In this document: positions 5,780 through 60,323 of the stretch, piece by piece
How positions within the stretch are numbered: the stretch's first letter is position 1
Layout of the letters: each line of letters opens with the position of its first letter
The notes under the pieces: generated by a model
Databases searched by the model: none
Told to the model about the DNA's origin: nothing
What the model saw: the letters and a program-made list of their open reading frames with translations, nothing else
Origin: Mesodorylaimus sp. YZB2_4
Taxonomy: Eukaryota; Nematoda; Enoplea; Dorylaimida; Dorylaimidae
Length of the DNA stretch: 64,000 bases
Assembly (NCBI GenBank): GCA_030248295.1
Contig: JASANH010001374.1
Span: forward strand, 806,001 to 870,000
Direction of reading: 5' to 3'
Program-made: the position numbers and the translations under genes

Positions 5780-7311
5780 ATGGGATTGAAAGCGTCGGGA
5801 GATGTAAGTTTGGAATTTTATTATTAGTTTTTGGGGGAAATTAATTTTTGGGTAAAAATTGTGGGCTGATTTAATATTTCAATTATATGTTGGCCAGATG
5901 TCTATTCGTGGATTTGGTTCATTTTAGTTGAGAGAATACATTGTGATCGGTCGACGATTGCCGGCTGAAAAGAGTGCGGAGAAGAAAGGCCCGAATGCTC
6001 CGCCGCCGCCGTTGTACAAGATGCGATTATTCGCTCCGAACGCTATCGTGGCGAAATCTAGGTTCTGGTATTTTTGCCGTACGTTGAAGAAAATCAAAAA
6101 GGCGAACGGCGAGATTGTTTCGGTCGATCAAGTAAGAGAATTTTAGGGTTTCCCCGGTTATTGGAAGTGAAAGAGTCGCTTTTCTCAACGAAATGGCTCT
6201 TTTTCAGTTGCAGTTAATGTAGGCTATGTTAAGTCGTTACAGTCGCCTAAAACACTAATGTGCTAAATTTTGTTTAATAAATAAACGGAAGGGGATGAGA
6301 ATAAATAAGGATGAGATTTGAAATAGGGTCTTGATGGGTGATCTGATGGGGTGATGGGTGGGTGGGATGCAGTGTCGTGTCGGGGATAGTTTTTGCTTTG
6401 CTTAGAATTTCTTCGTTACCGAGCTGACGAATCGAAGTTTCGGTGGTTGCTTTTGCGTAATTCACGACAATTTTTCTTTACTGCAACGAAATATCACATA
6501 AAATAAGGTTTTTAGCCCTCTTGCGTCTGCGCCCTTTCATGGTTTGATCTAACATATTCCATCTTTCAGGTGCAAGAAAGGAAACCGCTAAAAATCAAGA
6601 ACTTTGGTATTTGGCTGCGTTACGATTCTCGTACTGGCACGCACAACATGTACCGTGAATATCGCGATTTGACGACGGCTGCCGCTGTTACTCAATGCTG
6701 TAAGTGATGGCTTGGATATTCGCCTGTTTGGGGCCAAAAGATTCGCCTTTTTAGATCGTGACATGGGAGCTCGCCATCGCGCTCAATCCGATAGCATTCA
6801 AATTATCAAGGTGGAGGAAATACCAGCGTCGAAATGCCGTCGTGCTCATATCACGCAGTTCCACGTGAGTACTGGGGAGTACTTTTACTGGGAGGTTTGA
6901 ATCGCAGAGCGTCCAAAATTTGGGATTGTCTCAGCTGATGGTAGAACTGGCTTGGCGGGAATGAGAATTTTGTGGATTCGATTGAATTGGGGGGACTCAT
7001 AAAATCCAATTGGACTTCGGAGGATGTGTACACAAATATGCCTTTTTTGATCAGCGGGCAGGCGGACGCGTACAATCAGTTTGGTCAGAAGAAATGTGCG
7101 CGTAGTGCTGGTCCCTGTTTTTTAGTTCTTGACTCCATGGGAGAAGCGAGTCGCTGAGAAGCTACTTCAGTCTTTTATTTTGTTTTGCTGACGGAAGTTT
7201 TGTTTAATATTTTAGAATTCGAAGATCAAGTTCCCGTTGACGCAAGTGATCACGAAGAGGAAGAACGTGTCGCGTTTCACCACTCGTCGTCCCAAGACCC
7301 ATTTCTCTTGA
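5780..7311 (+). CDS. RPL18A: Large-subunit ribosomal protein eL20 (L18a)
   Basis: Structural protein of the cytosolic 60S subunit. Exons 5780-5803, 5928-6131, 6570-6699, 6755-6864 and 7216-7311 join in phase to 187 residues; animal L18a is usually about 176. Diagnostic stretches are [41 protein letters not shown] and a basic C-terminus. The extra length is a Lys/Ala/Pro-rich insert after the first strand (residues about 19-34). The first exon codes only eight residues, starting MGLKASGD, where vertebrates have MKASG. The start is chosen because it is the only ATG that joins in frame. It lies 361 nt downstream of the SMC6 stop on the same strand, and a polyadenylation signal follows at 7415. 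Confidence 0.96.
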
Positions 7312-33987: not shown

Positions 33988-36900
33988 ATGGCCGACTGGC
34001 AGGGCAAGGCGGGCCCGCTCCCCTTCCCCTACAACATGGCCGTGCACCCCGCCTGCAACAACTCGGTCGACCCCCTGAACACAATGAGCGAGACCGAGAG
34101 ACTGTGCCTGAACAATCGACAGTACTGGTGTTTCCTGCTCTCCTCCATCGTCACATTCTGCGTCTCCATGCTGCTCGTGGTCGCCTGGCGCATCGTGGTC
34201 TTTCTCTGCTGCCAGACCCCCACCTCGGTCTCGCCCACGGCCTACCAGCAGACCACGGACTACGACGATGCTTTCCCGACCTCCAACTCCAATGTGGACA
34301 TCAGACAGAACGGGCAGCCGGGCAAACTGTCGCCCTGGACCGCCGAGCCCCCCTCCAGCTCGTCCACTGGTCACGAGCCACCCCTCGCCAAGAACAGTTT
34401 CGGCAACGCCTTCGCTGCCGCACGTGTCGGATGGATGACCGAAGCCAAGGACTGGGCGGGCGAATTGATTTCTGGTCAAAGCACAACCGGAAGGATCTTG
34501 GTGAGTGAGTGGGCCTGGGTTGCCTACTGCATCTTATAACATGACCACAAATCAATAAACTGCACCTTATCAGTCTTATCACTTTATCGATAGGAATTGC
34601 TGATAAGCTCGCCTCCGCCCTTCGCCAGGGTGCTTACTGACCATAGCTGCTTATCACTCAACTGTTTTTGCCACTTTGAACCGGCATGACTGCCACACCT
34701 GCTCTCCTTCCAGTCTTTTCCAGGGCGCTTACTGACCATCACGCCACCCGGCCGCTTATCACTAAACTGCAATTTGTCACTTTGACCCAAAGTGATAAGC
34801 TCGTCTACAGTATGCTCTCCTGGGACCCCGACCCCTTCCAGGCCGAGTCTGGTCAACAAATTGAATATGTTCCCATTCCGTCCTCCATTTGGTCACGTTC
34901 CAAGGCTTCACTTCCTGAAAACATCCTCGCCTGTCCTTAATTTTTTCAAAAACGTCTTTCATTCGGGCTATGTCGACGAAAAAGATGATTTTTCGAGGCC
35001 TTATGGACAAGGTTCTCGTCTGTCATTAATCTTATTTAATTACGTGCATCTCCTCGTTCCTTGCTTTGGGGGGGGGGGGGAGTGAGAAAATAGGAAATTC
35101 TTTTAGTTCGAGGCGAGAAATAGGCCAGCAGGGTTTCGATAATTTATGAGGCCAGCATGCGTAATGGAAATCAACCAAAGCACTGCTTAGATAAGACATA
35201 GGGTTGCAATTTTTATCTTAAAATGAGCTAAAAATATTACAAAATCGAAAGACTGTTTTTTTTAAGGCATTAAAGTGTTTTCTATTTTTCTCTGCGACTA
35301 TGGCTGAATAAGAAGGTTGAGCCGATGGCCAAACATGGCGAGCCTAGTCGAGCGTCATGTTGCCGAGACGTTGTGTGTGGCAAGTAATCGATAAGCTGCA
35401 GATTAGCCGTCTTAAACTCGTTCAACAAGTCTAAAATTCTATACTGCCCTTTTATGGGAGCATAGGAGGCTAATGTCGGCTTTTTTCTGTGTCCAATCTT
35501 TTATTCGTATCGAAAACGAGAGGCGACGAGGGTGCAGAGTGCTGTCACCCGCAAGTAATCAAAGCAGGGGACAAAGTATAGAGTGGGGGGACAGGTGAAA
35601 TCGGACGACGATGTCCACAGGGACACACCGCACAGGCTGATGGTCCGCCAGTGCGCACGGTGGCTCGGGGCGACAGGCGTGCTCTACGGAGGCTAGGCGA
35701 CCCGGGTCTGCGCCCTTGCCGCCCCAGCGATTAGTAGAGAGCGGCCGGACTCAGCCAGGGTTCAATCCTCGGTGACGGAGGTTAATTTGGACATTGATTA
35801 TCCTGTGAGCCCCACCAGTCGCCGTGTGATCAGCGAGGTCCTCCGGCTTCTAAATCGCACAGCACAGCAGGTTTGCCTGCGACGTCTCCACTAGGAGTAC
35901 CTGTGTCCGGGGTCCCGGATGTGAGGGAGAGGACTCCCTTCGAGATTCCTACACTAGGTCACCCAGGATTGGTCTTTCCTCCGTCGCCCAGGATTGAACC
36001 CGGGCCGAGTCCAACCACTGCAGGACCCTGACCTGGGGGGGGGGGGTCGATGTTCTGTTTGCCTTGCCTGAAATCTTGTGATGGGTTCGACCTGTTCATG
36101 GCCGTGGAGACATTGTGTCAATGATTTATACGGGCATAAAAAGGGAAGCAAAAAGTTCGAAATGATTAAAGAGGGCAATGCGAGCGAGCGGGCAGTTTCT
36201 AATCCATTTTTTATAAATGCATCGACGACGAACACGCAAGAAAAGGTCGATAAAACCAGCATAAATTAGGGCGAATAGAGGATGATACATTTTTCATAAA
36301 AATGCATCCCTGATCGAAAGATGGCTTGTTGCCAAGCAAGAAGGGCTGAAAAAATGAAAAAATTGAGGATGGCTTTTTGGATGACTTGGAAGCTAATGAC
36401 AGTTTCAAAAGGTCATGTCAGAGTGGGACCAGGGGTGGGTAGTCGATCAATGAGGTCCTGTTTTGACTTTTGATGTCACAGTCCTTCCATGGTCGAAGAT
36501 ACGCGGGCCCCATTTTGGCCTTGTTTGCACAGTTCGATGGTGTCCTGACCCCAGACACCCATCAAATTTTATGGCACAGGATTGTTGTGGTTTTCCGTGA
36601 CATCAAAGCACGTCCTGGAATATTTTATTCGAGGACAGCAATGACTCAACGCTAAGCAAGCTGAAAAGCAGGGGAGCCACAGCAGCTGGCGCAGCGTGTG
36701 CATTGCAAAAGCAAGAAGTGAATAGGTTGCATTCAAAAAGCGAATCAGACAGCAGACACGACAAGGACGGACATTTCATCTCTTGACCAGGAGATCCACT
36801 GGTCCATTGTCTTGCCTGACGTCATTGTGACCCCTGCATCAAATACCTTCTGGGGTCGCAGTCTGATTGTGAGCTGAGGATAGACCCCTCTGAGGTCCTT

Positions 36901-39900
36901 TTTCCCTCCGCCCGTTATCGGAGGAGGGAAGACTGGCCCTTGTAATGCAGGTTAGAACAGGGACTCTGTAATCAATCAAAATACAAAATTTGAGTGCTCA
37001 GCGGGATTCGAACCCTCGCGAGCTAGCTTGAACGCTTAGCGGTGGGTGACTGACCCTTGATCCCGCTGGGGTCGAATCCGGGCCCGGCAACCCGCAGGAA
37101 AAAGACGATGGGTGAAAAAATCCCGCTCAGGGTTCAAGTTTGTACTGCATCTTCGCTTTCTTCTTGATATTCGTCGCTCGCTGACCTTCAGATTCCACCA
37201 AAGCCTGAACTGAAATCAAGCACTCCTTGTCCCCCCCCACTTTTTCTCCAAAAAACACCAAAACGTTTCCTAGTCACCAAAAATTGATTCTTTTCTGGAA
37301 CTGGTCTCTTCGAGCATCCCCCGAGGATATCTGGCACGAAAACACCCCCTCCCCGTGTCAGTGCTTTCCTTATCTGTGCATGTCTTCCACTTTGCAGGTC
37401 GTGCTAGTGTTTATTCTGTCGATCGCATCGTTGATAATCTACTTTTACGACGCCTCGCAGTAAGTGGTAATGGAATATGGGTCGGGTGTGTGAGTGGACT
37501 CGACTGGCCCTGACTTGTTCAATTACTCAATTGGCTCGAAGAGTGTGCTAGCCTCCTCCTTCCGCACCGATTCCATCTGCCAAGGAGTTAAAGCAGGTCA
37601 AAAAACCCCCACTATCGATTTTCCTCCCTTCTAGTCCTCAGTTTCAAGTGGAAACGTGCGTGCCGTGGTCTCAAAGCCCCTCGCAGCAAATCGATTTAGC
37701 ATTCAATATATTTTTCTTGGTTTATTTTTTTATACGAGTAAGTCGTGGAAATGTTATTTTTAAACTAATCGAGGAATCGACAAAAAAGGCACTATAAATC
37801 ATTCGGAACAAGATTCAGAAAGACTGTTTTTCAAAGATTATTTTGTTCTAGTTTATCGCAGCCACGGACAAAGTATGGTTTTTGTTGGAGGTGTATAGTT
37901 TCGTGGATTATTTCACCATTCCCCCATCCTTCGTGGCTATTTATCTCGAACGTAATTGGCTAGGTGAGTGCCCAACAAGGCAGTGCCTAGCTGAACAGTG
38001 ACCACAAATTGATCAGTTTTTGACTAGAATTTAATGAAAACCTTATCTGCGTTTGGTGACTGGGGAGGGGTAACCAAATGATACGCTGCTCTACGGGCGG
38101 CTGATTCGGTTTAGAAGGCGAGCGGGTCGTAATTGGATTTAGGATGCTTAGTTTTAACGAGTCTTGAAATGTCAGAGGGAGATGGGGGTGGTCACAGACA
38201 AGATGGATGCCTGCAAGTGGGGACTTGGGTGGCAAAGATTAGGAAAAGGATCCGTAAGCTTGTGTCTTTTCTGTTAGCCGTACGAACTGGGTGTAAGACC
38301 TGTTATCACATGATAACGCGATAAGGTATACAATGCTGGAGGTAATTTGCTAGGTGGGAAGACCTGCTATCATGATATGATATTGCGATAATCATCTTTG
38401 GCAGGGTAGGAAGACCTGCTATCATGATATGATATTGCGATAATCATCTTTGGCAGGGTACGATGCCAAACATGATATCGCGTAATCATATCATGGCGTT
38501 CTGCCTTTCAAAAAGAGCGGCTAACAGAAAACGCATCTAAATTACAATACAACAGCGCAGTTTCGGACAGACTATCTTCAAATGTTTTGCTGTTTTCCGT
38601 TTTAATCCACCACTCGCAGCTTTGGCGCCAAAATTGACTCGCCGCAGTAAGGCTGTGCCGCTTCCGGTGACTTCCATTCGGACGCGTTATCGCCGATAAA
38701 ACTTGTCTGCCATTTACCAATAATACATTCTGCCACAATCACACATATTCCACATAGACTTTCCCCTTCTTTTGAATGCAATGCACGAAGAAATATTCTC
38801 CCGCCCACGCAACCGGAAGTCACTGGAAGCGGCACACTCTTACTACGACGTCAAAGTCAGTTTCGGCGCATTAGTTGCAAGGTGGATTTTCCAGACCTGA
38901 CAGGCGCACGATTAGACATCGTTTTACGCATTAATGGATAATTTAATTTGATTTCAAAGTCAAACAAAAAAGCCAAGCATATTTGCACGCACGCATGCGC
39001 ACACCCACGCCCTGCTATGCCCCTCATGTCGAACTGTTATAAGAAGCTAAGCGCGCGAATTCAAATTGTTGACTGCGAAGATATGAAATGGCTGATTGCA
39101 GTGAGCGGGTCGCAGGAAGCATAGCTTGCTGCGTGCAGTTACAGTGTCCGGTCTCTTATGGTCACGATACTCACCCAATGAAAAACCTCTGGTGTTTGCA
39201 TCTTCGATAGTTACATTAGAAAATCCCACTTTTAACCACAGGACAACATTACAGGCTCCGAGGATTTATGTGAAGGTGGACTTATTTTGTCAATCGGGGT
39301 TTCGGGGTTGGATCTGACGCAAGCAGTCCATCTGATGTCTAACCAGTGATCGATTGAATCTGCAGATCCAATCAATCACTGGTTCGATCATGTCGATGAA
39401 TTGGATTGGATATTGGATGGTGATTGACTGGACCAGTGACTGTGATAATGTCGATCACATATCGATTGATATGACCATGTCGCGACATGATCACAGCTGA
39501 TCACGTGATCGACGTGATCGCATCTGATCAGATGTGATCTGAGCACATTCTCTCGTCAGTTGCTGTTTGGATCCTGATCTGAGCTAACGGATTACTTGGC
39601 ATGTATCCTGTGTCTGAGACGATCAACCAATGGAGTGATCTGAGATCACACTGCGCATCGTGTCTTGACTGACATGGGTGTAACAGTGACCGATGTTGAC
39701 AGGCTTACGATTTATGCGAGCCTTGCGCCTAATGAGCGTACCAGATATACTGCAATATTTGAACATCCTAAAGACGAGTAACTCGATTCGCCTCGCCCAG
39801 CTGGTCAGTAGTTTTATCAGCGTCATATTGACGGCGGCTGGAGTCATCCACATTGTGAGTGCGGGCAGGGCACTCGTACAGTGTGCAGTGTACCTTCTAT

Positions 39901-42900
39901 GACACCCTTTCGTGCACGTACCCAACTCGGCAGTACTGTAATTTTCCATATATGGTCTGGGTATTGTACGTCCGGCCTGCTGTAGAGCACACTCATTTTC
40001 CATTTCACACTGTGGCCCTGGTGTACTGTGTTCTGTTTGACTGTTGTGCAGGACTACGTTTCCTCCGAGCACTGCGACTGATGACCGTACCGGACATATT
40101 GACTTATTTGAACATTTTGAAAACTTGTAACTCTATCCGTTTGGCACAATTAATCAGCAGTTTCGTAGCTGTCTCGTTGACTGGAGCTGGTCTCATTCAC
40201 TTGGTGAGTGGCACGGCATGCACTCTCCCCTCTCGCTCACACCCGCCTGTCCTTCTGTTCACGCTTACTAGATCGGGCATGCTCGCCTAGGCTATGCTTA
40301 TCAGTGCTCGCTCGGACCCTTATCAGTGAGTTATCACTTGGTGATAAGCCTTGATAACGCGTTGTCTCCTTTCCAGTTGGAAAATAGTGGCGATCCGTTC
40401 AAGGGCTTTGAGAATCCGCAAAGGATCACGTACTGGGATTGCGTCTACTTCTTGGTGGTCACTATGGGCACAGTGGGATATGGAGACATTTGCTGCAAGA
40501 CTGTGCTCGGTCGATTTTTTATGGTCTTTTTCATTTTAGGTGGTTTGGTAAGTTTTTTAGCTGATTTCAAAATTGAGATGAAGTATGTCCCGTTTGTGAA
40601 CGCAGGCCATGTTCGCCTCGTACGTGCCGGAAATAGTTGATTTGATTGGATCGAGGCAGAAATATGGGGGAGAATATAAAGCGGAGCATGGAAAAAGGCA
40701 CATCGTCGTGTGCGGTTACATCACTTACGAATCGGTCAGTCATTTCTTACAAGATTTCTTGCACGAAGATCGAGAAGACGTCGATGTGGAAGTGGTCTTC
40801 TTGCATCGGTACGTAAGCACGATCTGATAGCTGCCTTAGTCGCACACAGGGAAACCCTTATCTGAAACCATATTTTACTCATGTGAAAGGATAAGGCAAT
40901 TCCGGTCTTTTCGTGTGGCCGCTGGGTCTGCTTCTTCAGAAGGATCATGGCGGTATCAGTCTTCGAGCCGGACGTAGTATCCTTGCACGGGGTGTGTAAA
41001 ATATGGTTTCAGGAAGAGTGCTAGGGCGAAGGTAGACCCCTGCGGTACAGTACCCAGTGCGCGACAAAGTAATAGTGAATCTCACGATCAGTGCTGGGTG
41101 TTCTTCGAAAGGATCATGTCGGCATTCGACCCTCCAAACCGGAGGGGGTGTGTAAAATATGGTTTCAGGAAGAGGTTGCTGGGTGATGCTGGTGCGGTGC
41201 ATCCTCAGTGTTAGACCAGATGCAAAAGGGAGGGATCAGAGCTGAACACACTTGCCTTGCAGGGTGCCACCCGATCTGGAACTCGAAGGCCTATTCAAAC
41301 GTCACTTCACCAAGGTGGAATTCTTCCAGGGCACAGTCATGGATTCCATAGACTTATCCAGAGCCAAGGTAAGTGGTGACAGCGACTGCGGAGAGATGGC
41401 TCATATACTGTACTGTAGGAGATTGCAGCATGGGAGTAGCTTGGCCTGAATAGATAAGATATATCACTGAATAGATAAGATATATCACTGAATAGATAAG
41501 ATATATCACTGAATAGATAAGATATATCACTGAATAGATAAGATATATCACTGAATAGATAAGATATATCACTGAATAGATAAGATATATCACTGAATAG
41601 ATAAGATATATCACTGAATAGATAAGATATATCACTGAATAGATAAGATATATCACTGAATAGATAAGATATATCACTGAATAGATAAGATATATCACTG
41701 AATAGATAAGATATATCACTGAATAGATAAGATATATCACTGAATAGATAAGATATATCACTGAATAGATAAGATATATCACATGAATAGATAAGATATA
41801 TCACTGAATAGATAAGATATATCACTGAATAAGATAAGATATATCACTGAATAGATAAGATATATCACTGAATAGATAAGATATATCACTGAATAGATAA
41901 GATATATCACTGAATATGATAAATATATACTATAATATACTAAGATATATCACTGAATAGATAAGATATATCACTGAATAGATAAGATATATCACTGAAT
42001 AGATAAGATATATCACTGAATAGATAAGATATATCACTGAATAGATAAGATATATCGCTGAATAGATAAGATATATCACTGAATAGATAAGATATATCAC
42101 TGAATAGATAAGATATATCACTGAATAGATAAGATATATCACTGAATAGATAAGATATATCACTGAATAGATAAGATATATCACTGAATAGATGAGATAT
42201 ATCACTGAATAGATAAGATATATCACTGAATAGATGAGATATATCACTGAATAGATAAGATATATCACTGAATAGATAAGATATATCACTGAATAGATAA
42301 GATATATCACTGAATAGATAAGATATATCGCTGAATAGATAAGATATATCACTGAATAGATGAGATATATCACTGAATAGATAAGATATATCACTGAATA
42401 GATAAGATATATCACTTATCACTGAACTGATCTCCTCTTATCATAACTTTATGCAGCGTTCACAGAAATCTTTCCAACTTCAGCAATGTGAATGTTTGTG
42501 CTCATATCAGGCTGACCAAGCAGACGCGTGTCTCGTGCTGGCCAACAAGTACACATTGGATCCAGACGCGGAGGATGCGGCCAACATAATGAGAGTGATC
42601 TCGCTGAAGAACTATTCGGCCGATATTAGAGTGATCGTGCAGTTGATGCAGTATCACAACAAGGTAGATCAGGTGCACCCACTGACCACGTGACACGGGG
42701 ACTCGACTGTTGCAGGCCTACTTGCTCAACATTCCAAGTTGGGACTGGAAACGAGGCGACGATGTCATATGCTTGGCTGAACTGAAGTTGGGTATTCTAG
42801 CACAGAGTTGCTTGGCGCCTGGCTTCTCGACCATTATGGCCAATTTGTTTGCAATGAGGTCGTTCAAGACGGTAAGCTTATTTGAGGCTGGAAGGCACAG

Positions 42901-45900
42901 ATGGAAAACTGATTCTATTTGCAGCCTTCGAGCACTCCTGGATGGCTGAATGAGTATCTGAGGTAGGTGTGGCTACAGTTTCTCTTTGCTGGGCCATATC
43001 AGTGGTTCGGCAGACCATTTGGGTCATCAGTGCAGACTTACTGTCGAGGTCATCTTCAAGGCATCATCGGACATTCATGAAAAAGACATGGGGTAGCACT
43101 GATGAGTCAAGAACTTGCAGCGATAAGTACACGGTCGTGTCAAATGCAGCATGTCAGGCTGACCACCAGCCTGGTCCTACTCATCTACCATATGCCTTGA
43201 CTTTCAGGGGCGCTGGCATGGAGATGTACACCGAGTTACTCTCGCACTACTTTGTGGGCATGACATTTCCAGACGCGGCCGAGTAGGTTTCTTCCCGTCG
43301 ATGCTTTCACTCCGCCATTCATGGTCACTGTTTCAGATTCCTATTCTCCAAGTTAGGGCTTCTCATGTTGGCCATAGAAATTAAGGACGAGGACAGGAAC
43401 GAGTGTTACATCGCCATCAACCCGGGGCACCACGTGGCCATCAAGGCCAATACGCAAGGATTCTTCATTGCTCAATCAGCCGACGAAGTGAAGAGGTGAG
43501 GCGAGGAGTGGTCAGAGACAAGGACTGACGGGTTTCCGTTTAGGGCTCTCTACTATTGCAAGAGCTGCCACGAGGACATTCAGGACGTGTCCATGATAAA
43601 GAAGTGCAAGTGCAGAAACAGTAAGTTGTCCTTGATCACTGACCAGGTCATACTGTCCAGCTGCATCTATGCAGGGGCGATATCCAGCCTTGGCACGAGG
43701 GGAGGATTCGGAGAGGGCAGAGCACGAGGAAGTGATTCACGAGCCGTAGGAGGAACACTGAAACGCTAGGGTGCACGTTGCACAGGGCGCTCAGGACTTG
43801 GGCATGATCTTATCAGGACCAGTACAAGCACGTGCTCCAGGTGGGACAAGTCAGTGGTGAGCACAGGCGCTGTGCCGCAAGCACCGATAAGGACCCTGGG
43901 TGTGCACACCCAGTGTCCTTATCAGTACTGTTGCCACCAGTGGGAGGTGCCTGTGTAAGTAATCTATAGATTGGTCACCCAGAAGAAATCGTGTCACATA
44001 CGAATAAGGGGTAGCAATTGCGAAATCTCCAGGGCAGATCCCAGGTCTGCTTGGTCTTCTAGCCAGTGTACGACTGGATCCCTAATACTGGAGGGAGTGG
44101 CCGGTGGAGCTTTTGCGCTAGGTCAAGAACACAGGGCAGCCAAGCAAGTCTTCCGACCTAGTTCCTGGCTGAAACATCACCCTGACGGTGAATGATCGAC
44201 TGATTGATCGATCAGTCGATTATCGATTGGCAGGCATGCCTTCTCATGAAAAGTCCCTGCCAGTCGTGCAGGGTGAATATGAACCCCTCGGGTTGATGTT
44301 TAAGCCGCAGGTGTAGTCCTAGAATCGGAAGTTTGCACCACAACTTCATCTTCGGTTACAGTAACCCTGTTCAAGAAAGGTGTCAAACACGTAATTCTGG
44401 CCAATCGTGCAGGTAAGCCCGTCCATCTTTAAGTCAAGAACATAGACGAAGTGTGTACACTTTCAGCCAAAGTTTTGGTGCCAAAACATTCAGCTTCAAA
44501 TAGCGAAGAGAAGATGTTGGATGTTGGAGGGCGGTCGAGCAGAGAAGACTCGCCTGACCCGAGGAAACCACTTCGAGGGGACAGGTAAGGCCTGCGATGT
44601 ACAGTAGTTGACTGGGTTGGTGACCCTAGTTGGACACTCTGTGTTGGCTAACTTCGCTCGATCCAGCTCGATGTGGCATTCCCAGAGAGCTGATGGTCAT
44701 CTAGGGGCCATCTCCCGATAGACCCGATATCTGGCGTTGTCCTGTCGCCCTGACCCACCCTGACCACGGGCAGCCCTGGAAGACGCGAAGGATCTTATGG
44801 TCGTCTACTGTAGTGACCATTCCTGAAAGACTCGACACCCACCATCCCCTAAAAGACTGTGTCATCCACCTGGCTCTGGCCCTGACCCACCCTGAGTCCT
44901 GACCATGGGCGGCCTCTTGGAAGACTTGAAGGATGTCTACTGTATTGACCCCCACCCCTGCCATCCCCTGAAAGACCGCATGTCATCTTCCTGGGTCCTG
45001 GCCCTGTCACCTGACCCACCTTGATCACGTGCTCCCTTAAAGACTCGAAGGATCTGATGGTCATGTACTGCAGTGACCCGTCCCTGAGGGACCCAGTGGT
45101 CATCTGGTTCATTTCAGGCAAATTGCCCACAGCGACAGTCGCAGCATCGAGTCGTGGCGTTCGTTCGAGCCGCAGGAGATGAAGTACGATTCAACCGGCA
45201 TGTTCCACTGGTGTCCGGCTCGAGCGATCGAGGACGTGATCCTGGACCGTGATCAGGCATCGATGACACTGCTCAGTGGCCACGTGGTCATTTGCCTGTT
45301 CGCCGACAAGGAGAGTCCATTGATCGGACTGCGCAATTTCGTCATGCCATTGAGGGCATCGAATTTTCACTATCACGAATTGAAGCACGTGGTCATCGTG
45401 GGCGACGTGGAGTACATGAGGCGCGAGTGGAAGACCATGTACAACCTGCCCAAGGTCTCCATACTGAATGTAAGCTACCAGTTTACTCTGTGGTTGCCTC
45501 GCCTGGGCAGTGCACTGGTAGATTGTAGTAGTATGGGCAGGCCTGGCCTATCCAACCGAGGGCTCGTGGTGCCCAGTGCCCTTGATGCATTCATGTGCTC
45601 TAAAAGGGCTCCCAGTCACAATTGCGTTTCAGGGCAGCCCTCTCAGCCGAGCCGACTTGCGTGCAGTGAATATCAACCTTTGCGACATGTGCATCATCGT
45701 CTCGGCCCGTATTCCCAACCCGGCAGAGGACCCGACACTGGCTGACAAGGAAGCCATTCTGGCCTCGCTCAACATCAAGGCCATGCAATTCAACGATCCA
45801 CTGGTCCTCGGGGGTGTCAGACAGTCTTCGCCACCGCCACTGAGAAGACGATCCGCAAAACTGGGCACCGAAGTGCCCATGCTGACTGAGCTCGGTAAGG

Positions 45901-47299
45901 TGCATGCAAAAATGTTGGAGAGAGTGGGATTCGAACCCTTGGACCTTTGCCTTTGGAGACTAGATGCCTGAGGGAATGGCCCCACCTTACGACCCTGCCT
46001 AGCGTTATGACGCCCCTCGTTTCAGTCAATGATTCCAATGTGCAATTCTTGGATCAAGACGACGACGACGATCCGGACACTGAATTGTACTTGACTCAAC
46101 CCTTCGCGTGTGGGCACGCCTTTGCCATAAGTGTCTTAGATTCGCTGATGAGCACCACGTATTTCAACGATTCCGCTCTAACGCTCATTCGCACTTTGGT
46201 GACCGGCGGCGCCACGCCAGAACTAGAATTGATTTTGGCCGAAGGTGCTGGCCTTCGCGGCGGATATTCGACCCCGGAGCTTCTGCGCAAAAGGGATCGA
46301 TGCCGAATCGCCCAATACCCGCTCAATGATGGTCCCTTGAGAGGACTGGTGAGTCTCTGGTTTGCCCTCCTAGCCCACCCAGCTGTGGCTGAAAGGACCC
46401 CGCACTTACCAGCTAGTGTTCAAATCCCAGTCGGGGAACTCACTTCTTATGATGAGTCCCTTCACCCTCGAGGGGATGACTGAGTGCATAGTGTCAGCGG
46501 GGATAGTATCCCGTTACCCACGATGACGGGGGGCAGTTGTTCTGTCAGGCGGAGTCCATGGCCTCCCAGCCCCACCCAGCTGTGGCTGAAAGGACCCCGC
46601 ACTTACCAGCTAGTGTTCGAGTCCCAGTCGGGGAACTCACTTCTTATGATGTGTCCCTTCACCCTCGAGGGGATGACTGAGTGCATAGTGTCAGCGGAGA
46701 GAGTATCCCGTTACCCACGATGACGGGGGGCATCTGTTCTGTCAGGCGGAGTCCATGGCCTCCCAGCCCCACCCAGCTGTGGCTGAAAGGACCCCGCACT
46801 TACCAGCAAGTGTTCGACTCCCAGTCGGTTAACTCATGGTGACATGGGGGCCATTGTTCTGTCAGGCAGAGTCCATGGCCACCTCCCCCCCCGTTGGTGA
46901 CCCTTCATCCTCGGGTTAGGTGATGTGGTGATAGGAGCAGGAGTTGACTCAAGATCAGTGCAACCATTCCCAGCGGCGTTCTAATCACAATAATTTGTGT
47001 GGCAGACTGGCTCAAACTCAACGTTTGGAGAACTATTCAATAGAGCCCTTGGCGAACGTGGGATGCTGAGTATTGGATTGTATCGCCTGTTGGAGCCGAT
47101 GGAAAATGAGAAACGGTACGTGGCCACCAGTCCGAGTGCCGAGGTCAGATTACATCCTAGTGACAAGGTAAGACCACCCATCGGCACCCACACACCCCCT
47201 GCTCACTTGTACCCCATTCAGGTCTTCGTTCTCGAACCGTTCGATCATGGTTTGCAGTACGAACCTGCTGATCGCAGAAGAAAACTGCTTCAAGAATAA
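33988..47299 (+). CDS. SLO1: Slo1 BK channel, calcium- and voltage-activated potassium channel alpha subunit
   Basis: Plasma-membrane K+ channel opened by depolarisation and cytosolic calcium. Exons: 33988-34500, 37398-37459, 37635-37737, 37852-37963, then 39703-39854 or 40052-40203, 40377-40547, 40606-40808, 41263-41368, 42511-42663, 42716-42871, 42925-42962, 43208-43282, 43337-43495, 43544-43620, 44467-44584, 45118-45469, 45633-45894, 46026-46348, 47006-47167 and 47222-47299. These give 1,124 residues with either alternative exon. Exon 1 holds the S0 helix and [17 protein letters not shown]1-S4 follow, then the pore TVGYGD (exon 40377), RCK1 ([28 protein letters not shown]), RCK2 and the calcium bowl [12 protein letters not shown] (exon 46026). 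The sequence is closest to arthropod/nematode Slo1 in wording ([31 protein letters not shown]). The C-terminus is short. Introns are repeat-filled. Confidence 0.97.
34501..37397 (+). other. BK channel intron 1
   Basis: 2.9 kb. It contains imperfect direct repeats built on CTTATCACT and GGCGCTTACTGACCAT (34570-34800), tRNA-like fragments near 35735-35790 (+), 35985-36035 (-) and 36990-37065 (-, B box GGGTTCGAATCCC), and G-homopolymers near 35070 and 36035. No coding exon was seen. Confidence 0.7.
36990..37068 (-). repeat. tRNA-like sequence (degenerate)
   Basis: The minus strand reads CCCAGCGGGATCAAGGGTC..., with a perfect B box GGGTTCGAATCCCGC. The acceptor stem and A box are poor, so it is called a tRNA pseudogene or SINE head, not a functional tRNA. 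Confidence 0.45.
37964..39702 (+). other. BK channel intron before the alternative exons
   Basis: 1.7 kb. It holds a 51-bp tandem duplication (about 38360-38461, GACCTGCTATCATGATATGA), an inverted pair GCCGCTTCCGGTGACTTCC / GGAAGTCACTGGAAGCGGC (38648 and 38813), and a GATC-rich stretch (39330-39550) just upstream of the first alternative exon. Confidence 0.65.
39703..39854 (+). CDS. SLO1: BK channel alternative exon A (S4 to S5)
   Basis: 152 nt encoding [33 protein letters not shown] and LTAAGVIHI. It has consensus splice sites (TTGACAG acceptor, GTGAGTG donor) and the same length and phase as exon B. It keeps the S4 arginines. It differs from exon B at 13 of 51 residues, mostly in S5. Confidence 0.93.
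40052..40203 (+). CDS. SLO1: BK channel alternative exon B (S4 to S5)
   Basis: 152 nt encoding [33 protein letters not shown] and [17 protein letters not shown] acceptor, GTGAGTG donor, 197 bp after exon A. If joined directly to exon A the frame is shifted and a TGA appears at the tenth codon, so only one of the two can be used. Confidence 0.93.
40850..41172. mobile_element. MITE-like element with CTGAAACC ends and a partial tandem copy
   Basis: The left end CTGAAACCATATTTTAC (40862) and inverted right end GTAAAATATGGTTTCAG (ending 41012) bound a 151-bp unit. The right half is repeated, ending again with GTAAAATATGGTTTCAG at 41168. It fills most of a BK intron. Confidence 0.7.
41447..42419. 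repeat. 21-bp tandem array, about 46 copies
   Basis: The unit TGAATAGATAAGATATATCAC is repeated head to tail over 973 bp with few substitutions and one disturbed patch near 41910-41945. It lies in the BK intron between exons ending 41368 and starting 42511. Each unit contains AGATAAG, a match to the GATA-factor site, and the palindrome GATATATC. The repeat-encoded minus-strand open frames are artefacts of a unit length divisible by three. Confidence 0.97.
44680..45112. repeat. Degenerate tandem repeat, ~130-bp period
   Basis: Three or so diverged units containing CTGAAAGACTCGA, CTGACCCACC and GGAAGACTTGAAGGAT in the BK intron before exon 45118. Confidence 0.6.
45918..45992 (-). repeat. tRNA-like sequence (pseudogene or SINE head)
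   Basis: The minus strand has the perfect B box GGGTTCGAATCCCAC and a weak A box. It lies in the 131-bp BK intron before exon 46026. Confidence 0.5.
46373..46880. repeat. ~193-bp tandem repeat with tRNA-like core, 2.6 copies
   Basis: Units begin CCACCCAGCTGTGGCTGAAA at about 46376, 46571 and 46763. Each holds a B-box-like TGTTCAAATCCCAG or TGTTCGAGTCCCAG. They lie within the last long BK intron. The third unit is truncated and diverged. Confidence 0.85.
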
Positions 47300-49565: not shown

Positions 49566-52500
49566 ATGGAAGAACCCAGTCCACCGCCCCAACCGATCGA
49601 AATCGTTGTCCGTTACGAAGAGAAATCTGGTCAAATGCGAAACGGCGACACGCGTCATCTCGACGACAACGATAGCGATGGCGGCGATGATCAGTTTCAT
49701 CAAGCCGTTGAAGAAACTAATTTATCGTCGACCGAAGAAGACTGTGATCATGGGGGCGAGCTGATCGTGAAACGTCGTCGACTGACGGTTGAACATAAAT
49801 TGACGAGTCTTAGCGATGGTTCGATCGATGAATTCGAAGGCAGTGAAGCAGACGAAGATTTGCGATTTTGTTTTCCTACATTCGATACGGCGAAAGAAAC
49901 TGCCGAACATTTCGTAAAAAAGGTGAGTACTTTACGATTTTTTCCAATTTTAGTTTTCAATGTTTCTGGTAACTAACATTTTTATTGTGATATAGGCCTA
50001 TCAGTTTAACGAATTTTTCACCCTCAGGCAGAGTATTTTTAAAAAAATGCTCCGTTTTTTTCAGTTTTGTTTGAAGATAATGTAGAATTTGTTTAAAAAT
50101 CCTTTTATTTCAGGTGTGGGAAGCATCGTGGAAAGCAACTCATTTCTACTCGTTACCCGAATGGTTACAAGACAATGACTTTTTGCATACCGGCCATCGT
50201 CCGCCGTTGCCATCGTTTACGGCCTGCTTCAAATCAATTTTTCGTGTTCATACGGAAACGGGCAATATTTGGACGCATATGATTGGATGCGTATTTTTTG
50301 TCGGCATCGCATTATATTTTTTGACACGACCTCATCACGAAATTCAATTACAAGAAAAAATTGTGTTTTCTCCATTTTTCTTGGGCGCAATTGCTTGTTT
50401 AGGATTATCGTTCGCTTTCCATACGGTTTATTGTCATTCGGAACGTGTCGGCAAGTTGTTCAGCAAGTAAGTGGCATCGATTTTTATTGATTTTTTAGAT
50501 CGTATTTCAGAGGGAATACAGGAGGAAGGCGGGTTTTGATGGCGCACTGCAGCAGATTGAAAAAATGGGTTGAAACGATCGGTCGTTGATTAAAATTCTT
50601 TGTTCTGTTGAAAAATATGGTCAATAATCAAGTGGGCAGGGAGACCCTCATTTCCATCCGCTCACGTCAAGAGGGGATTGTCAGTCGCAGCAGAAGCTTA
50701 TTGATTATTCTATGCTAACGGGGTTTTGTTTTATGAAATAGGGCGTAGCATATGTTCAAATAGGATAAGACTTGTGAAGTGGAACTTAAATATTAATTTT
50801 GCTTTTGTTATCTTTTAGGCTCGACTATGTTGGCATTTCGTTGTTGATCATGGGCTCGTTCGTTCCATGGCTTTATTATAGTTTCTATTGTCGTCGTGAG
50901 CCCAAGTACACTTATATGATCACGATTATCGTTTTGGGCAGCGTGTGCATTATCGTATCGTTATGGGACAAGTTTTCGGAGCCATTATTTCGTCCTTTGC
51001 GAGCTGGTGTATTTATGGCGTTGGGTTTGTTCGGTGTGGTGCCTTCGGTACATTTCATAATCACTGATGGATATTCGGCTGCCGTCAAGGAAACTTCGTT
51101 TCACTGGTTGGTCTTGATGGCTTGTTTGTACATTGGAGGTAAGATTTGTGCGTTTTGGATTGATTCGAGAGATGCAAAAGAGGTAACCATTTTAGGCGCC
51201 TTGCTGTACGCGATGAGGATTCCGGAAAGGTTTTTCCCTGGGAAATGCGACATTTGGGTAAGTAGACGAGGGAAAGGGTGGCCAGGGGCTTGTGGGTCCG
51301 GTGTGATGGTTGTGTGCAGGGGTCGCATAGGGGTTTTGGACGCGCATTTCACAAGTCTTGTACAATGCAAAATTTGGATCTCCCGCGACTAGTGCTCATG
51401 ACAGTTTTGAATGGATAATAAATCTAAGCCTGTGCGAACGCGCTGTTAAAAGAAATCTGAGTATTTTATCAATGTTGCTTTTAGTTTATGACTAATTCCG
51501 CGGTTGACCCGCCTGATAAAGCTACAAAATGGGGGATGCGCACAGGCTTTGACCTATGGTACGTTTCATCAACGTAAAACTGTCATAAGCGGCTTGCAGC
51601 GGGAAATTCAAATTTTGCGCTGAAGGAGACCTGTAAAATTGTCGGTAGCTGAGAGTGCCTGTTAGCACACAATTTTCTTTCCTGTGTTGCACCTGACAGG
51701 CGTAAAAAACATGGGAGTTGTCCAGATTCTTTTGATTGAATATGTGAATACTTTTTGGCATTTGATTGAGTCAGAAAATATTTTCTGCCTGCTCTCAGTC
51801 CGCTGCCAGGCATTCCCATGTTTATACTTTGTGCGTAGATCACGCACCAAGTAGAAACATGTCCGAGCATGCATTGCTCACCATTGGTCTTGTGTCTGTG
51901 AATCAGCGGCATCTGAACTTTTTTCGAATCAGCGCCAGACAAAACGAGCATTTGGACGAAATGGCTGTTTTTGCTGCAAGTGCCTGGAAAAAACTGTCGT
52001 AACTCGCTGCGATTGTTATAGGGGGAGCGAGTTTTGACTGAAAAGAGTGAATACGCTTCTGTTTCTTTAGTAAAAGAGTAAATTCTAACATTTGTATTTT
52101 CGATCGGGGGAATCGATTGGTCGGAAATGGCTATTTAATGTGACCTTACTGAAAAAAGTCGAAAGTTTTTTAGTCTCTAACCTTTCGGCCATTTGCAGAT
52201 AAAGAGCGATGGTCTAAATTTTGTTCTAATGCTCATGGCTTTTGGGGGGGATGCCAATCGGTGTGCAGGAACAGGTGCAGTGGTGAGTGAGTGCAAGTGT
52301 GATGTGAGTCCTCATCTTACGTCATATTTTATCCATAGCCCAGCGCTATTAACGCACTCGAGGGCAAACACAATTGAATTTTACCCAGGCGGGAGTCGAA
52401 CCCTCCCCTGTAAGCGTGAGAGACAGACGCCTTAACCCGCTAGGCCACGGCCCAGTCCTGTCGTGCAGGCTGTTTTTCCTTTTTTAGTTCCAAAGTCATC

Positions 52501-55072: not shown

Positions 55073-56548
55073 CAAGTATGCATGCCAGTTTCTGACATAC
55101 AATTCTGATGTGTTACCAGTTTTTCATACTTTAAAGGCAAGAAAGACAAAACAACCTGCCATTGCATCTTTAATGGCACATTTCTAGGTCGATCGATATT
55201 TGAGCCATCAAATGCCTGCCGAGCATAACCCCTGGAAAACGAGCGAGCTAATGGCACCCTGGATTCTGTCCAGACCCAGCATAGGCGATAAGACAAAGCA
55301 AGGGAACCTGTCAGGACCATATCCCAAAATAGGCCATGATTGCGACCAGTCCAGTTTGAAAAACGAATCTCATGAGAAAAGAGGCTAGAAAATAAAAACA
55401 TAATTTTCTCACAAAAAATCTTATTTCCTCTTTTCGTGTTTGAGCGGAAATGTTCATTGGATAAATGTTTTTTCTAGATCGCCTGGATCTGTCATAAAAT
55501 AGGCGAGGCTAGATTAAGAACTGGCTCCGAGCATCTGCTCGTGCTGGAGTGTAACGACCTAGGATGATAGGCAGCAGAGCAGCGAGACTAATGCACCTGT
55601 CATTCTGGGGGGTAGCCCACCCACGCCTTCAGTCTTGATGTCCTCTGACCACTTGTTATCATTCGTTAACTTCCAAGCTTCTTTCCCTGCGATTTTTATG
55701 ACTTTTCGCACCACAGCCTTCTTACGAATTTCTAAATTTCCAAGTATTTTATATGCGGCTTAGACTGATCGGGAGGCTCGTGATGGGGAAAAATGACAAT
55801 CGAAATGGTCTTCACGCATTTTCCCATCGATCGATAATTTCCTGATCGATAGGCTGGATGGGGGCATAGTCGTTACCATTTCACCAGCGCAGTTTTGTGT
55901 GGGCATTGAAGCTAAACTTATTCATTTACGCTCGAAAAGAGTCGAATGACTGGTGCGCGCAATGGCGGCTAAAAAGGTTATTGGCGGGGCATAGTGCTGG
56001 TCTGATGAGTCCCCTGTGCCACACCGTTGCCAGGATCCAATACTGGCTTTTTAAGCCGGGGACAAAACGGGCCAGCGGCTCGAGTTAAGCTCTAGTCAGT
56101 AAATAACGAATTGCCTTTCTTTCCCGTCGCCATGTGACCACGCTGTCAGAGTCCTTTCCCAGACTCGACCACCCAAAACCCTCAACGGGCACACGCAGTC
56201 CGAGTCGGGCTGGCCTTTCGTCAGCTTAACTCATTTTTGTGGAACTTGGCAACTGGATAGTGTGCAAACAGTATTCGCTCCCTCTGTAGCTTGTCTTTGC
56301 TTCCGTGTTCTGACCATTCAATCCGCCCTGAGCAAATATCGTCTCGATTACCAGCCGCCTTCGCCAATCGATCCCAGCCAGACCAGGGGCGTAGATAGTG
56401 CTAATTGCTTTTTGGATATGAAGAAAATGAAATAGTTTTATCAAACCGGGCATAGCTGATTGCTGAGGCTGCCATCAGTTGGTGCATTCAAAAAGTACTG
56501 AACATTCGCTCAAAGCTGATCCCTATTTTAGGATTAAAGATTTATGAA

Positions 56549-59500
56549 ATGGGTGGAAAATACAGCCATTTGAAACCGGAAGAGATAAATGATTTGAGAG
56601 AGAATACGGCATTTTCTGCCGAAGAAATTCAACTATGGTACAAGGGATTTTTAAAAGATTGTCCCAGCGGCCGATTGACACCGCATGAATTCAAGAAGTA
56701 AACTTCGTTTTCATTGAGTGACGTGTTTTCTGTTAGCCATGCATTTCTGTTCATCAGTCTAACATTTCTTTGGGTCGCCAAAAATTTAGGGCTTCCATAC
56801 TTTGATACTTTCAGCACTAGACCAGCTTTCACTTTACACTTTGACTTTGACTTCAATAACTTTCAGATATGCGAGAACAAAGTCCAGAAACGCGGGGCTA
56901 ACGTGAGCGAAAATCTGAAACCATATTTTACCTATGCAGCAAGAGTGTGGCGCTTCTCAGTTTGTACCCCACTCTATCTTGTCTATTCAAAGCATCGAAG
57001 CCTTCTGCATTTCCATATCATCGAGGTGGCCCATCGGAAGCGCCAGAATGTAATCTGCGGTGTAGAATATGGTTTCAGATAGGGTTTTCAAAAACTGAAA
57101 ACCGAGTATAGGGATTATCTGAGAATTCTTTTTTAGAATTTACAAAACATTCTTTCCCGAAGGAGACTCAAGTCAATTTAGCGAGCACGTATTTCGGGCT
57201 TTTGATACAAATAAAGATGGTAGTATTGATTTTCATGGTGAGAGTGCAGAAAAAATTTTATCATGTTCACATTCGAGGAAAAGCAGGAAAACTAGTTAAG
57301 AGAGGAAAATAGTCACTCAATCTAGCCTCATTCATAATTCAGCACGATATCGAAATGATGGAATGGAGCTTTTAAATTTTTAGAATTTCTCTGCGCCTTG
57401 AGCGTAGCATCAAGGGGAACAGAAGATGAAAAGCTGCGTTGGGCATTCGGAAGTGAGTTTTGTTTTTTGGTTCATCCAGCATAACCTCGGCTTCCAGTTT
57501 GAATTTCGCGCGCTTTAGCTGCTTACACCAGGGGAATGGATTACTATCCCCTACCAATGTGTGCGCAAACAGAAGAAATTGTGTAGAATAACAATCTTTT
57601 TGGCTTTCCATTTTCCATGCCAGCAATCCAAGCCAGCAATGTCAATTTCCACCTGGAAACAAATTTTTGGTTGCCCAATTTGTGACTTGGCGCCAAGTCA
57701 GAGTGGTTACTGAATGGGCAACCACAAATTTGTTTCCAGGTGGAAATTGACATTGCTGGCTTGGATGCAGCCTAGCTATAGAAAGAACCTTTTTTCAGTG
57801 TACGACATTGACCACGATGGTTACATAACACGCACCGAGATGTTGCAGATAGTGCGGGTAAGTGAGCACAGTGGATGGAGACGAGCCGAACTTGTCGCAC
57901 GCTGACGTCAACACCAATGCACCCACTAGCAGTGCGCAAACAGTCGAAGAGGCTAGTAGAATCGCTCTATCACATGGATTGACTGATACGAGGTCACAAA
58001 GCCTCGAGCACAGCGACACTGGGTGATTGCGTTTTCTGTGCCGAGTGACAGGTAATTGATGGCAGCGTTGCCAGATGCAGCTAGAATCCGCTAGGTCTGG
58101 CGGATTTTTGGGCCGACAGCGGACTAAACAGCGGATTGACTGTTTTAGCGGATTATGCAGCGGAATTTGGCTTTTTTGGCGGATTCTAGCGGATTGGTGT
58201 AAATCTGGATAAAGCAACCTACTGTGTGTGCGACCACTCTAGAAACAGCACTCCTTTTTTAAAGACAGTTGAGGCAGATATGTCCGCGTGTTATGATCTA
58301 AAGGGCCGATTATACGAGTGGGGACAAGAAATAAGCAAGCAATTTGTAGACCAGGGGTCTTCCTAATTGGTAACTGCTCAGTCGATACTAAGTGAAATCA
58401 CAGTTGTTGATCCGTTCTTACTCGGCTCCTCATTCTACAGTATGCTCCATTACATTCGCACTTTCAGCGTAAAATTTAGACCTGAGTAGTGGTGGTCGGG
58501 GGCGTCGGGGTGAGTCCCTTCCCACCCTTCGATCCCAGCCTCTTCCCCTTCTCGTGTACCATCCTCAGCCTAGCCCGCTAAAAATTTGCATGCACAGTAT
58601 GATCGATGAATGAGTGAATGTTTTTTGTTCTACTCCGCGTTTTATTAAAAACTAGTCGCTAAAATACCGCTGCAAAAAAATCGTCGCTAAAATACCGTAT
58701 TGCAGCTGTTTTTAGCGGATTTTCAGGTCCTTGGCTGCGAGTTTTCATTTTTGCATCTGGCAACGCTGATTGATGGGGGTTCAACAAATATGTGAAACTC
58801 ATTTTTAATATCAGCTTTTTGAAATTTTAATAAGATTTTTCCCTTGGAGCATTTGATTATTGATCGATAATCGTTGGAACTTAATTAGCTCCCTTGAGTT
58901 GTGATCCGAGACCCATAAGACCCTTACTTCTAATTTAAAATGCCAGCGGCAGCTTGTCGATTCGATTGATCCTACTGCATTATCTTGTAGTATTGTCTGA
59001 CTGAGGGAGGGACGATAGAAAAGGAAGACAGAGAGCATTCGACTGATTGCTCGTAGAACTGCATTTGCGGCTGCTGTATTGCCGCCGTTCATCATTGTCG
59101 AAATTTTTTATGCCCCATAGCGATCTGTGGACGACGTCGGAGCATGCTCACTATTGTGAATGTGCAGCAGTACAGCCTGTATCTCACTGCAATGGGCACG
59201 CCAGGTGGTACTAAGAAGCGTTAGATACGTTATAGTACACTCATGCGTTGAGACAGCGTCATGACTGCCCGCGTCACAGTGGCTGTAGTACTTGTTGGCG
59301 CGCAAATTCTGATTCAAATTTTTGAGTTTGGGAACCAGTGCTAGGTGGTAAGGACAACTGTACACAAGCAACAGCAGCCTTGCTTGTTAGCTTTCCGCCT
59401 TCGATCGTCATTTTTTCATTGTAAATTGCATTCCCGAGCAGCCATGCATAGCTGCCGTTAGAGCGGAACCATCAATCGGTTCTGGCGGCAGCATAAAAGA

Positions 59501-60323
59501 AATAAATGCAGTTTGATCACGCGTGTTCGCCCGTATTTTTATGATAAAAAGCGCATTCCTTTTTCATACCCTGTCAAAGTAGGTTTAGAGCGCTATTTTC
59601 ATTTTTTATTAGCACGGCTTTCGGTTTAGTATTCATTTCTCATGGTCGTGAAGATTGTGCAAATGCAGAAACCCCCGACCTGAAACCATATTTTACACAC
59701 CCTGACAAGAAAGTGCTTTTGTGGTGCGGTCTAGTGAAGGCATAGCTACGCTATTTGAGTGGCCGGGGGTTAAGGCGAAACGCCCTCGAGCAAGCGCCAT
59801 TAAATTTAGTTAAATGACACTGCTCATCCAGTTTAGGGCAGAGTTCTATTCGGAAGGGCGAAAATGAAACATCAAAACATGGCAGATGGCATAACAGAAG
59901 ACTAAAAGTGCCACATACCTGCGATCGAGTAAAAGTGGGTTTCAGATCAGGGTTTCTCTATAAGGGTGCAAGATTGGAGATACCAGATTTTTGCTGCCAC
60001 GCACTCCTAGCACGGTTTTCAGTCACTTGTTCTGTCCTATTGATGGCGAGTGAGCGTGGGTTTAAAAATCAGGGATGCAGGGGATGACAGACACCGCTGC
60101 GTTTTAGGCCATACACAAAATGATTGGTCCAACATTGGGCGAGTCGTTAGATGTCGAGGCACCGACCAGATGGACGAATAATATATTTAAAGAACTGGAC
60201 AAAAATCACGACGAAAAGTTGTCATTGGAGGAATTTATGGACGGGGCCAAATGCGACCCGTTGATCGTTCGGTTGTTGAAAGGAGACACGTCAGCCGGGG
60301 CGGCACATTCCAGAAAGCACTGA
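56549..60323 (+). CDS. Neuronal calcium sensor, visinin-like/neurocalcin/hippocalcin type
   Basis: EF-hand calcium sensor that binds membranes through a myristoyl switch. Exons 56549-56697, 57137-57237, 57384-57452, 57799-57857 and 60108-60323 join to 197 residues, the family's normal length. MGGKYS is an N-myristoylation site, which fixes the start. EF1 is degenerate with the family Cys-Pro pair (LKDCPSGRL). EF2 is [14 protein letters not shown]3 [12 protein letters not shown] and EF4 [14 protein letters not shown]4 has Glu where position 6 of the loop is normally Gly. Family signatures [26 protein letters not shown] and CDPLIVRLL are present. The C-terminus (GAAHSRKH) is not family-typical. 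Intron 4 is 2,250 bp and repeat-rich. The nearest paralogue cannot be fixed from sequence alone. Confidence 0.94.
56912..57090. mobile_element. MITE-like element with CTGAAACC ends, second copy
   Basis: The left end CTGAAACCATATTTTAC starts at 56924, and the inverted right end GTAGAATATGGTTTCAG ends near 57077, inside calcium-sensor intron 1. Size and ends match the 40862-41012 unit. Confidence 0.65.
57626..57766. repeat. Near-perfect 52-bp hairpin beside calcium-sensor exon 4
   Basis: Arms 57626-57677 and 57715-57766 are reverse complements (cores CAATTTCCACCTGGAAAC and GTTTCCAGGTGGAAATTG) with a 37-bp loop. It ends 32 bp before the exon at 57799, so it would fold next to the splice acceptor. 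Confidence 0.85.
57858..60107 (+). other. Calcium-sensor intron 4
   Basis: 2.25 kb. It contains the CTGAAACC-type element at about 59679-59950 and repeats of the element GCGGATT (58080-58200). No exon was seen. Confidence 0.6.
59679..59965. mobile_element. CTGAAACC-ended element, third copy (diverged)
   Basis: The left end CTGAAACCATATTTTACACA starts at 59679-59680. The right end GGGTTTCAGATCAGGGTTTC near 59938-59957 is inverted relative to it. The interior differs from the other copies. Confidence 0.5.

Follow-up and report, generated by a model that had tools for sequence, protein, structure and literature searches.

The stretch of DNA analysed here (the window) comprises 64,000 nucleotides (nt) from the nematode Mesodorylaimus sp. 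YZB2_4 (NCBI GenBank assembly GCA_030248295.1, contig JASANH010001374.1, positions 806,001 to 870,000 of the forward strand). On its plus strand lies a Slo1 (BK) channel gene, which begins with an ATG at 33988 and ends with a stop codon at 47297-47299, and within this gene two homologous exons in tandem, hereafter A and B, each encode S4, the S4-S5 linker and S5. Fourteen coding exons (A being counted and B taken as the alternative) have been placed from S0 through the BK_channel_a region, with AG/GT at the internal borders and a continuous reading frame; the later cytosolic exons were read by eye, so that their borders are approximate, and the stretch 43620-45118 lies outside the exon model. 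The helix names given to the exons of this gene (S0, S1, S2 and so on) are our presumed assignments. Among channels of solved structure, the one most similar to the segment from S2 to RCK1 built with exon A is Drosophila slowpoke (7pxe; E 9.6e-132), with Aplysia and human Slo1 next; the same segment built with exon B again has slowpoke at the top (E 6.2e-130). KCNT1 (Slo2) is a far weaker match to the query (2.5e-10), and the KCNU1 (Slo3) entry listed aligns to query residues 174-246 only. In the isoform A model of 693 residues, the Pfam families Ion_trans, Slo-like_RCK and BK_channel_a all score over their cut-offs, and the K+ selectivity filter TMGTVGYGD is present in the exon directly downstream of the pair. 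By its sequence the gene is thus that of a Slo1/BK alpha subunit, as the initial annotation had named it; it looks intact, and the current itself is a prediction.

The positions and lengths of A and B, the ends of the exons flanking them and the AG/GT sites all proved to be as first annotated (Table 1). The upstream constitutive exon supplies the first base of a glycine codon that is completed by either A or B, and each of them alone joins 37963 to 40377 in frame. If A is joined to B, nine codons of B are read and a stop is met at the tenth, which reproduces the earlier prediction on the sequence; skipping both exons also shifts the frame. The two exons differ at 51 of 152 nucleotides (101 of 152 identical, about two thirds) and at 11 of 51 residues (in the numbering of human Slo1, M209L, S216T, Q222T, S230C, V239I, I243V, S244A, I246S, A249G, V252L and I255L), the figure of 13 given at first having been a miscount. 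By codon position the 51 changes are 15, 5 and 31, and when 51 changes were placed at random in 5,000 runs, the resulting amino-acid changes averaged 30.1 and did not fall below 21, as against the real 11. Since the real number is so far below the random minimum, and since the pair recurs in three paralogous genes, the similarity of A and B is not due to chance. Over the 51 residues A is the version closer to the fly channel (84% identity, compared with 78% for B).

Table 1. Features of the Slo1 gene in the window (positions of the whole stretch).
Feature	Position	Strand	Remarks
First coding exon, S0 region	33988..34500	+	ATG at 33988
S1 exon	37398..37459	+	
S2 exon	37635..37737	+	
Upstream constitutive exon, end of S2 to S3	37852..37963	+	ends in phase 1
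Exon A: S4, S4-S5 linker, S5	39703..39854	+	152 nt, phase 1 to 0
A-B intron	39855..40051	+	197 nt, no UGCAUG
Exon B, tandem homologue of A	40052..40203	+	152 nt, same phases, Gly at 249
Downstream constitutive exon, pore loop through S6	40377..40547	+	phase 0; TMGTVGYGD
RCK1 and BK_channel_a exons (8)	within 40606..43620	+	AG/GT bounded, in frame
First four of these	40606-40808, 41263-41368, 42511-42663, 42716-42871	+	
Last four of these	42925-42962, 43208-43282, 43337-43495, 43544-43620	+	
Later cytosolic exons (RCK2 by position), acidic run DQDDDDDPD	45118..47299	+	approximate borders

The same arrangement was found elsewhere in the genome of the window (145 Mb, 1,067 contigs). A search with the exon A protein gave 10 matches from 10 candidates, and one with the exon B protein gave 10 at the same places (E up to 10). 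They reveal five Slo1 genes on five contigs, four of which carry an A/B pair, namely the window gene (C9), C149, C71 and C1, and the fifth of which (C136) has a single copy; the four paralogs are partial gene models. All eight paired exons are 152 nt long, have the same phases, lie at the same site and encode 51 residues with the upstream G. Exon A of C1, and of C1 only, is divided into 63 and 89 nt by a 59-nt intron, which is probably an intron gain; both parts need to be spliced together. In each of the four genes an A-B join is read for nine or 10 codons of B before a stop, and omitting the two exons puts the rest out of frame; a stop then falls inside the next exon in two of the genes (C9 and C1). 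Between A and B there are 49-59 nucleotide changes but only 11-14 amino-acid changes in the four pairs, each number being below its own random minimum (20-25; 5,000 placements each); third-position changes are the largest class in every pair, and exon A is 84-90% identical to fly over its 51 residues across the four genes. These features, repeated in four paralogs, fit the mutually exclusive pair that had been proposed, from which we infer the exclusion itself. That the tandem is an artefact, two haplotypes or two genes having been set side by side by the assembly, is practically negligible as an explanation: no point in its support was found, the exons are identical at just 101 of 152 positions in their DNA and share one set of flanking exons, and the arrangement is the same on four contigs.

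The fifth gene and its surroundings deserve a few words of their own. The single exon of C136 lies at C136:77136-77288 (locus G000:C136:74500-84400), and no B-like exon was listed there at E up to 10. C136 has Gly at position 213, where the other genes carry a voltage-sensing arginine, and KYRH after S6 in place of KYGG, and it stands on a long branch in the tree; it is perhaps a Slo1 with weakened voltage sensing. A sixth place matching BK_channel_a, G000:C5:914559-914874, is distant from the five Slo1 genes (identity with the window gene is only about one third in the pieces that align), gave no S4-S5 match in the searches with the exon A and B proteins, and is possibly a Slo2-type gene. In C1 and C149 there is also a second duplicated exon pair, in the BK_channel_a region, which was not seen in the window gene; on the gene (reverse-complemented) strand it lies at 6608/6823 in C1, where it carries WLNEYLRGAGAEMYTE / WLALYLCGAGFEMYTE, and at 7245/7533 in C149. 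This second pair seems to correspond to "region 4", a site of alternative exons reported for nematodes, arthropods and vertebrates (PMC4270693).

Splice sites were scored with weight matrices made from 20 constitutive acceptors and 21 constitutive donors of the five Slo1 genes, which themselves score from -3.4 to 11.3 and from 3.1 to 12.7, respectively. Exon B of the window gene has strong sites (acceptor 8.0, donor 11.1), whereas those of exon A are weak (-1.2 and 4.6; one of the 20 acceptors and one of the 21 donors score lower), its acceptor having no pyrimidine tract and its donor lacking the last exonic G. The initial annotation had called the sites of both exons good, which thus holds for B but not for A. 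Other weak acceptors are those of C149_A (1.5), C149_B (2.6) and C1_B (-0.4). With such sites, one copy in the window gene might be regarded as a relic that is decaying or no longer in use, and the single copy in C136 indicates that loss may occur. This is very unlikely, however: both copies have an open frame, the correct phase, a length of 152 nt and strong constraint, the pair has been kept in four genes despite largely saturated silent sites, and the low scores of C149_B and C1_B mean that weak sites are common among these exons.

Weak sites would also suit another role for exon A, or for one version in each gene: a mainly regulatory or unproductive one, in which the intron that follows is retained and truncated channels are made, so that the full-length channel is lowered or damped. 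In Trichuris suis Slo-1.1, truncated transcripts alone were reported to carry the exon beside a retained intron (S4 to S6), and full-length ones alone to carry the other; the share of one truncated form varied by stage and tissue, partly in data that the authors call preliminary (PMC4270693). Against this stands the constraint on both versions as protein, with third-position changes prevailing in four pairs and amino-acid changes far below random, and the closeness of A to the fly channel in four genes would be needless for an exon that merely ends translation. We therefore consider a mainly unproductive A quite unlikely, less so than a relic, and return to A and B as two exons of which both would make channels.

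How old is the pair? Of the four pairs within a gene, only that of C71 gives a defined Nei-Gojobori estimate of silent change (0.97), so that silent sites are largely saturated and the pair is old. Trees were made from nine rows (the eight paired exons and that of C136) of 51 codons. In the DNA tree, the four B exons fall on one side of a branch (support 79/87), and a tree that forces both exons of a single gene into one group is rejected by the approximately unbiased (AU) test for C9 (p 0.025), C149 (0.004) and C1 (0.027). A tree with one duplication, in which C136 stands on the A side, equals the free tree on DNA and on codon positions 1+2 and nearly does so on protein (AU 0.47). The AU test rejects independent duplications in all the paired genes, whether on DNA (0.0011), on codon positions 1+2 (0.0021) or on protein (0.0031), and it rejects three duplications (in C9, in C71 and in the ancestor of C149 and C1) on DNA (0.020) and on codon positions 1+2 (0.035). 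The protein tree of the exons is nearly unresolved, with seven of eight inner branches open. The trees thus favour one exon duplication before the gene duplications. In the gene tree C136 groups with C71 (96/94), on a long branch, so that a single exon in C136 would represent a loss of B.

What, then, differs between the two versions of the protein? The numbering follows human Slo1 by way of the equal ranges human 168-415 and query 1-248; as a check, arginines stand at 207, 210 and 213, and N225-K228 and F242 fall on matching residues, as in PMC12258894. The S4 arginines R207, R210 and R213 are kept in all eight exons. Position 249 is Ala in A and Gly in B in all four genes, and position 252 is Val in A and Leu, Phe or Ile in B in all four; positions 239 and 243 differ inside all four pairs, with no residue fixed for A or B. 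Of the 11 differences in the window gene, eight are found in S5, at position 230 or beyond, and N225-K228 is free of them. A preprint on simulations of truncated BK gives S5 a central part in coupling the voltage sensor to the pore, with L235, L239 and F242 in contact with S6, and cites linker mutations at N225-K228 as having little effect (PMC12258894). As the arginines are constant and the differences are concentrated in S5, exchanging A for B likely alters sensor-pore coupling rather than charge sensing. The tuning of voltage sensing and gating put forward by the initial annotation would accordingly be narrowed: the sensing charges do not change, and coupling is the likelier target.

The exons might also be mutually exclusive but electrically equivalent, their survival being due to drift, subunit dosage or splicing control only. 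This opposes just the functional half of what we propose, with which its odds overlap. Most of the differences are indeed conservative (V/I, S/T, A/G) and the S4 arginines identical; nevertheless, Ala/Gly at 249 and Val/other at 252 separate A from B in four of four genes although silent sites are largely saturated. We regard equivalence as rather unlikely, if the least so of the alternatives considered here, and retain two versions that would differ in gating.

The choice between A and B would also call for control. The A-B introns are 197 (window), 196, 300 and 249 nt long in the four genes, 942 nt in total. Exclusion by an A-B intron too short for splicing was ruled out, since these introns measure 196-300 nt and five other introns of the window gene only 48-58 nt. 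The motif UGCAUG (TGCATG in DNA) occurs twice in each of the A-B introns of C149, C71 and C1, always on the sense strand (antisense, none), which makes six copies in all; that of the window gene has none. Dinucleotide shuffles of the 942 nt contain 1.0 copies on average; one of 2,000 had six or more, and in none did three or more introns carry at least two copies each. The background is 0.39 per kb over 123 kb of retrieved sequence. Ranked by the number of introns with two or more copies, UGCAUG is first of 4,096 hexamers. The double motif of C149 had been seen before the counting; leaving C149 out, the count is four, which was reached in 10 of 2,000 shuffles. No TGCATG is present in the introns upstream of A in any of the four genes; downstream of B, C71 has two more and C9 has two GCATG. 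The upstream introns of the four genes have two 6-mers in common (200 shuffles: mean 0.15, maximum 2). Apart from these, no motif shared by the whole set emerged: the four A-B introns have no 6-, 7- or 8-mer in common, and neither do the four downstream introns. A search of the genome for an RBFOX-like RNA recognition motif turned up at least half of one (82% over 39 of 78 residues); none of the other candidates, 44 in total with this one, matched at E 1e-8 or better. In Caenorhabditis elegans, RBFOX proteins and intronic UGCAUG choose the mutually exclusive exons of egl-15 and unc-32 (PMC3585155). In three genes (C149, C71 and C1), the A/B choice would thus probably be under the control of RBFOX-type proteins.

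Taking the evidence together, we consider it quite probable that A and B are old, tandem-duplicated and mutually exclusive exons, the choice between which would be regulated and would alter S5. An ancestral S4/S4-S5 linker/S5 exon would have been duplicated before the Slo1 gene multiplied, both copies having been kept in four of the five genes. A productive transcript would contain either A or B, since the frame is lost when the two are included or skipped together, as can be read on the sequence. The choice would be made by regulated use of splice sites, in three genes probably through RBFOX-type proteins on UGCAUG in the A-B intron, and products including both exons would be removed as messages with a premature stop. 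With the S4 arginines in both versions, voltage would probably be sensed alike, and residues 249, 252, 239 and 243 of S5 would probably change how the movement of S4 reaches the S6 gate by way of S5, so that the two channels would differ in half-activation voltage or in kinetics.

Several points weigh against this reading. Exon A has both a weak acceptor and a weak donor in the window gene, whose A-B intron is also the one of the four without UGCAUG. The changes in S5 are conservative, and an effect on gating is deduced from their location. The input of the trees is small (51 codons, nine rows), and the branch setting the B exons apart has a support of just 79/87. Uniting A and B of C71 is not rejected (AU 0.089), the tree with four duplications is not rejected on protein by the stricter Shimodaira-Hasegawa (SH) test (0.077), and that with three is not rejected on protein (AU 0.179) or, by SH, on codon positions 1+2 (0.10). 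A bolder form of the idea has in our view somewhat less than an even chance: in a nematode lineage, a single ancient duplication would have created a two-state S4-S5 module, which then survived three or more later duplications of the gene. Two versions in each of four genes would provide eight sensor-pore couplings, switched by RBFOX. If this is true, splicing would have tuned, in a channel that is not domain-swapped, the direct path from S4 through S5 to S6 at 239, 243, 249 and 252 and left the gating charges alone.

Some other observations on the window and its genome may be recorded here. The acidic run DQDDDDDPD in the later cytosolic exons is one that we take to be calcium-bowl-like. The Slo1 intron 41369-42510 contains a 46-copy array of the 21-nt unit CTGAATAGATAAGATATATCA (97% matches) at 41446-42416, and sequence rich in TTATCA/TGATAA recurs near 40321-40365 and 38281-38500. 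Open frames at 50081-51392 and 56456-60323 have translations that resemble parts of an adiponectin-receptor-type membrane protein and of an NCS-1/frequenin-type EF-hand protein. Of 137 candidates in the genome, 133 match the cuticle-collagen N-terminal domain (Col_cuticle_N), a family that marks nematodes, which by itself makes a nematode very probable. In the genome, 15 COX1-like matches lie on 11 contigs (e.g., G000:C73:251445-254668), several of them with in-frame TAA or TAG; mitochondrial-type COX1 reads through with TGA as Trp. The 15 matches may represent nuclear mitochondrial insertions or misassembled mitochondrial sequence.

Mutually exclusive voltage-sensor exons are found in insect para and in Cav channels, where, as proposed here, voltage-sensor or S4-S5 sequence is chosen by exon swapping. 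The frequency of such exon events in voltage-gated channels has been surveyed (PMC9741552). Those channels are of other families, whereas in BK the sensor and pore are not domain-swapped and the exon spans the direct S4-S5 contact (PMC12258894). Tandem exon duplications of human KCNMA1, fly slo and worm slo-1 have been mapped on structure 3naf (PMC9741552); they are of the same family and the same kind of event, which has arisen repeatedly. The match between 3naf and our query, however, does not start before residue 149, close to where S6 ends (about human 316), so that the events mapped on it are at other sites than the S4-S5 pair described here, 3naf being unable to display events outside itself. 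With egl-15 and unc-32 the present genes share tandem exons in a nematode with UGCAUG in a neighboring intron; there, control has been shown by genetics and binding (PMC3585155), while here it is suggested by motif enrichment in three paralogs and a partial candidate protein.

A further comparison is offered by Trichuris. In T. suis, alternative exons with retained introns directly after them have been reported between S4 and S6, the "splicing region 3" of Trichuris Slo-1.1 and Slo-1.2 (PMC4270693). Both systems concern nematode Slo1 with more than one paralog and alternative exons in the S4 region beside introns, but those of Trichuris are described with intron retention and truncated channels, one version to each class of transcript in T. 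suis Slo-1.1, and no in-frame S4-S5 exon pair is described in the portion of that text consulted (PMC4270693). The duplication behind the Trichuris exons may be the one described here, which would have come to notice there by way of intron retention. Two Slo1 genes, lying tail to tail, are reported in both Trichuris muris and Trichinella spiralis (PMC4270693), as against five on five contigs here. In the literature searched, where subscription papers were mostly outside the scope, no in-frame, exclusive S4-S5 pair was met in any Slo1, which is weak evidence for novelty. A choice of S4-S5 exons, thought unusual in the initial annotation, is not clearly described as an in-frame choice in the Slo1 literature searched, but the Trichuris exons are a partial precedent.

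As far as the available accounts go, the described choices between tandem exons of Slo1 lie in the cytosolic part, Trichuris apart (PMC9741552, PMC4270693). A natural swap confined to S4-S5, with constant arginines and present in four genes, would offer a ready test of how BK channels transfer movement from sensor to gate in comparison with domain-swapped channels (PMC12258894). Slo1 is also a direct target of the anthelmintic emodepside (PMC4270693), and in this nematode the target family comprises at least five Slo1 genes, four of them with two versions of the S4-S5 transmembrane segment, so that each of these four can probably make two channel types.

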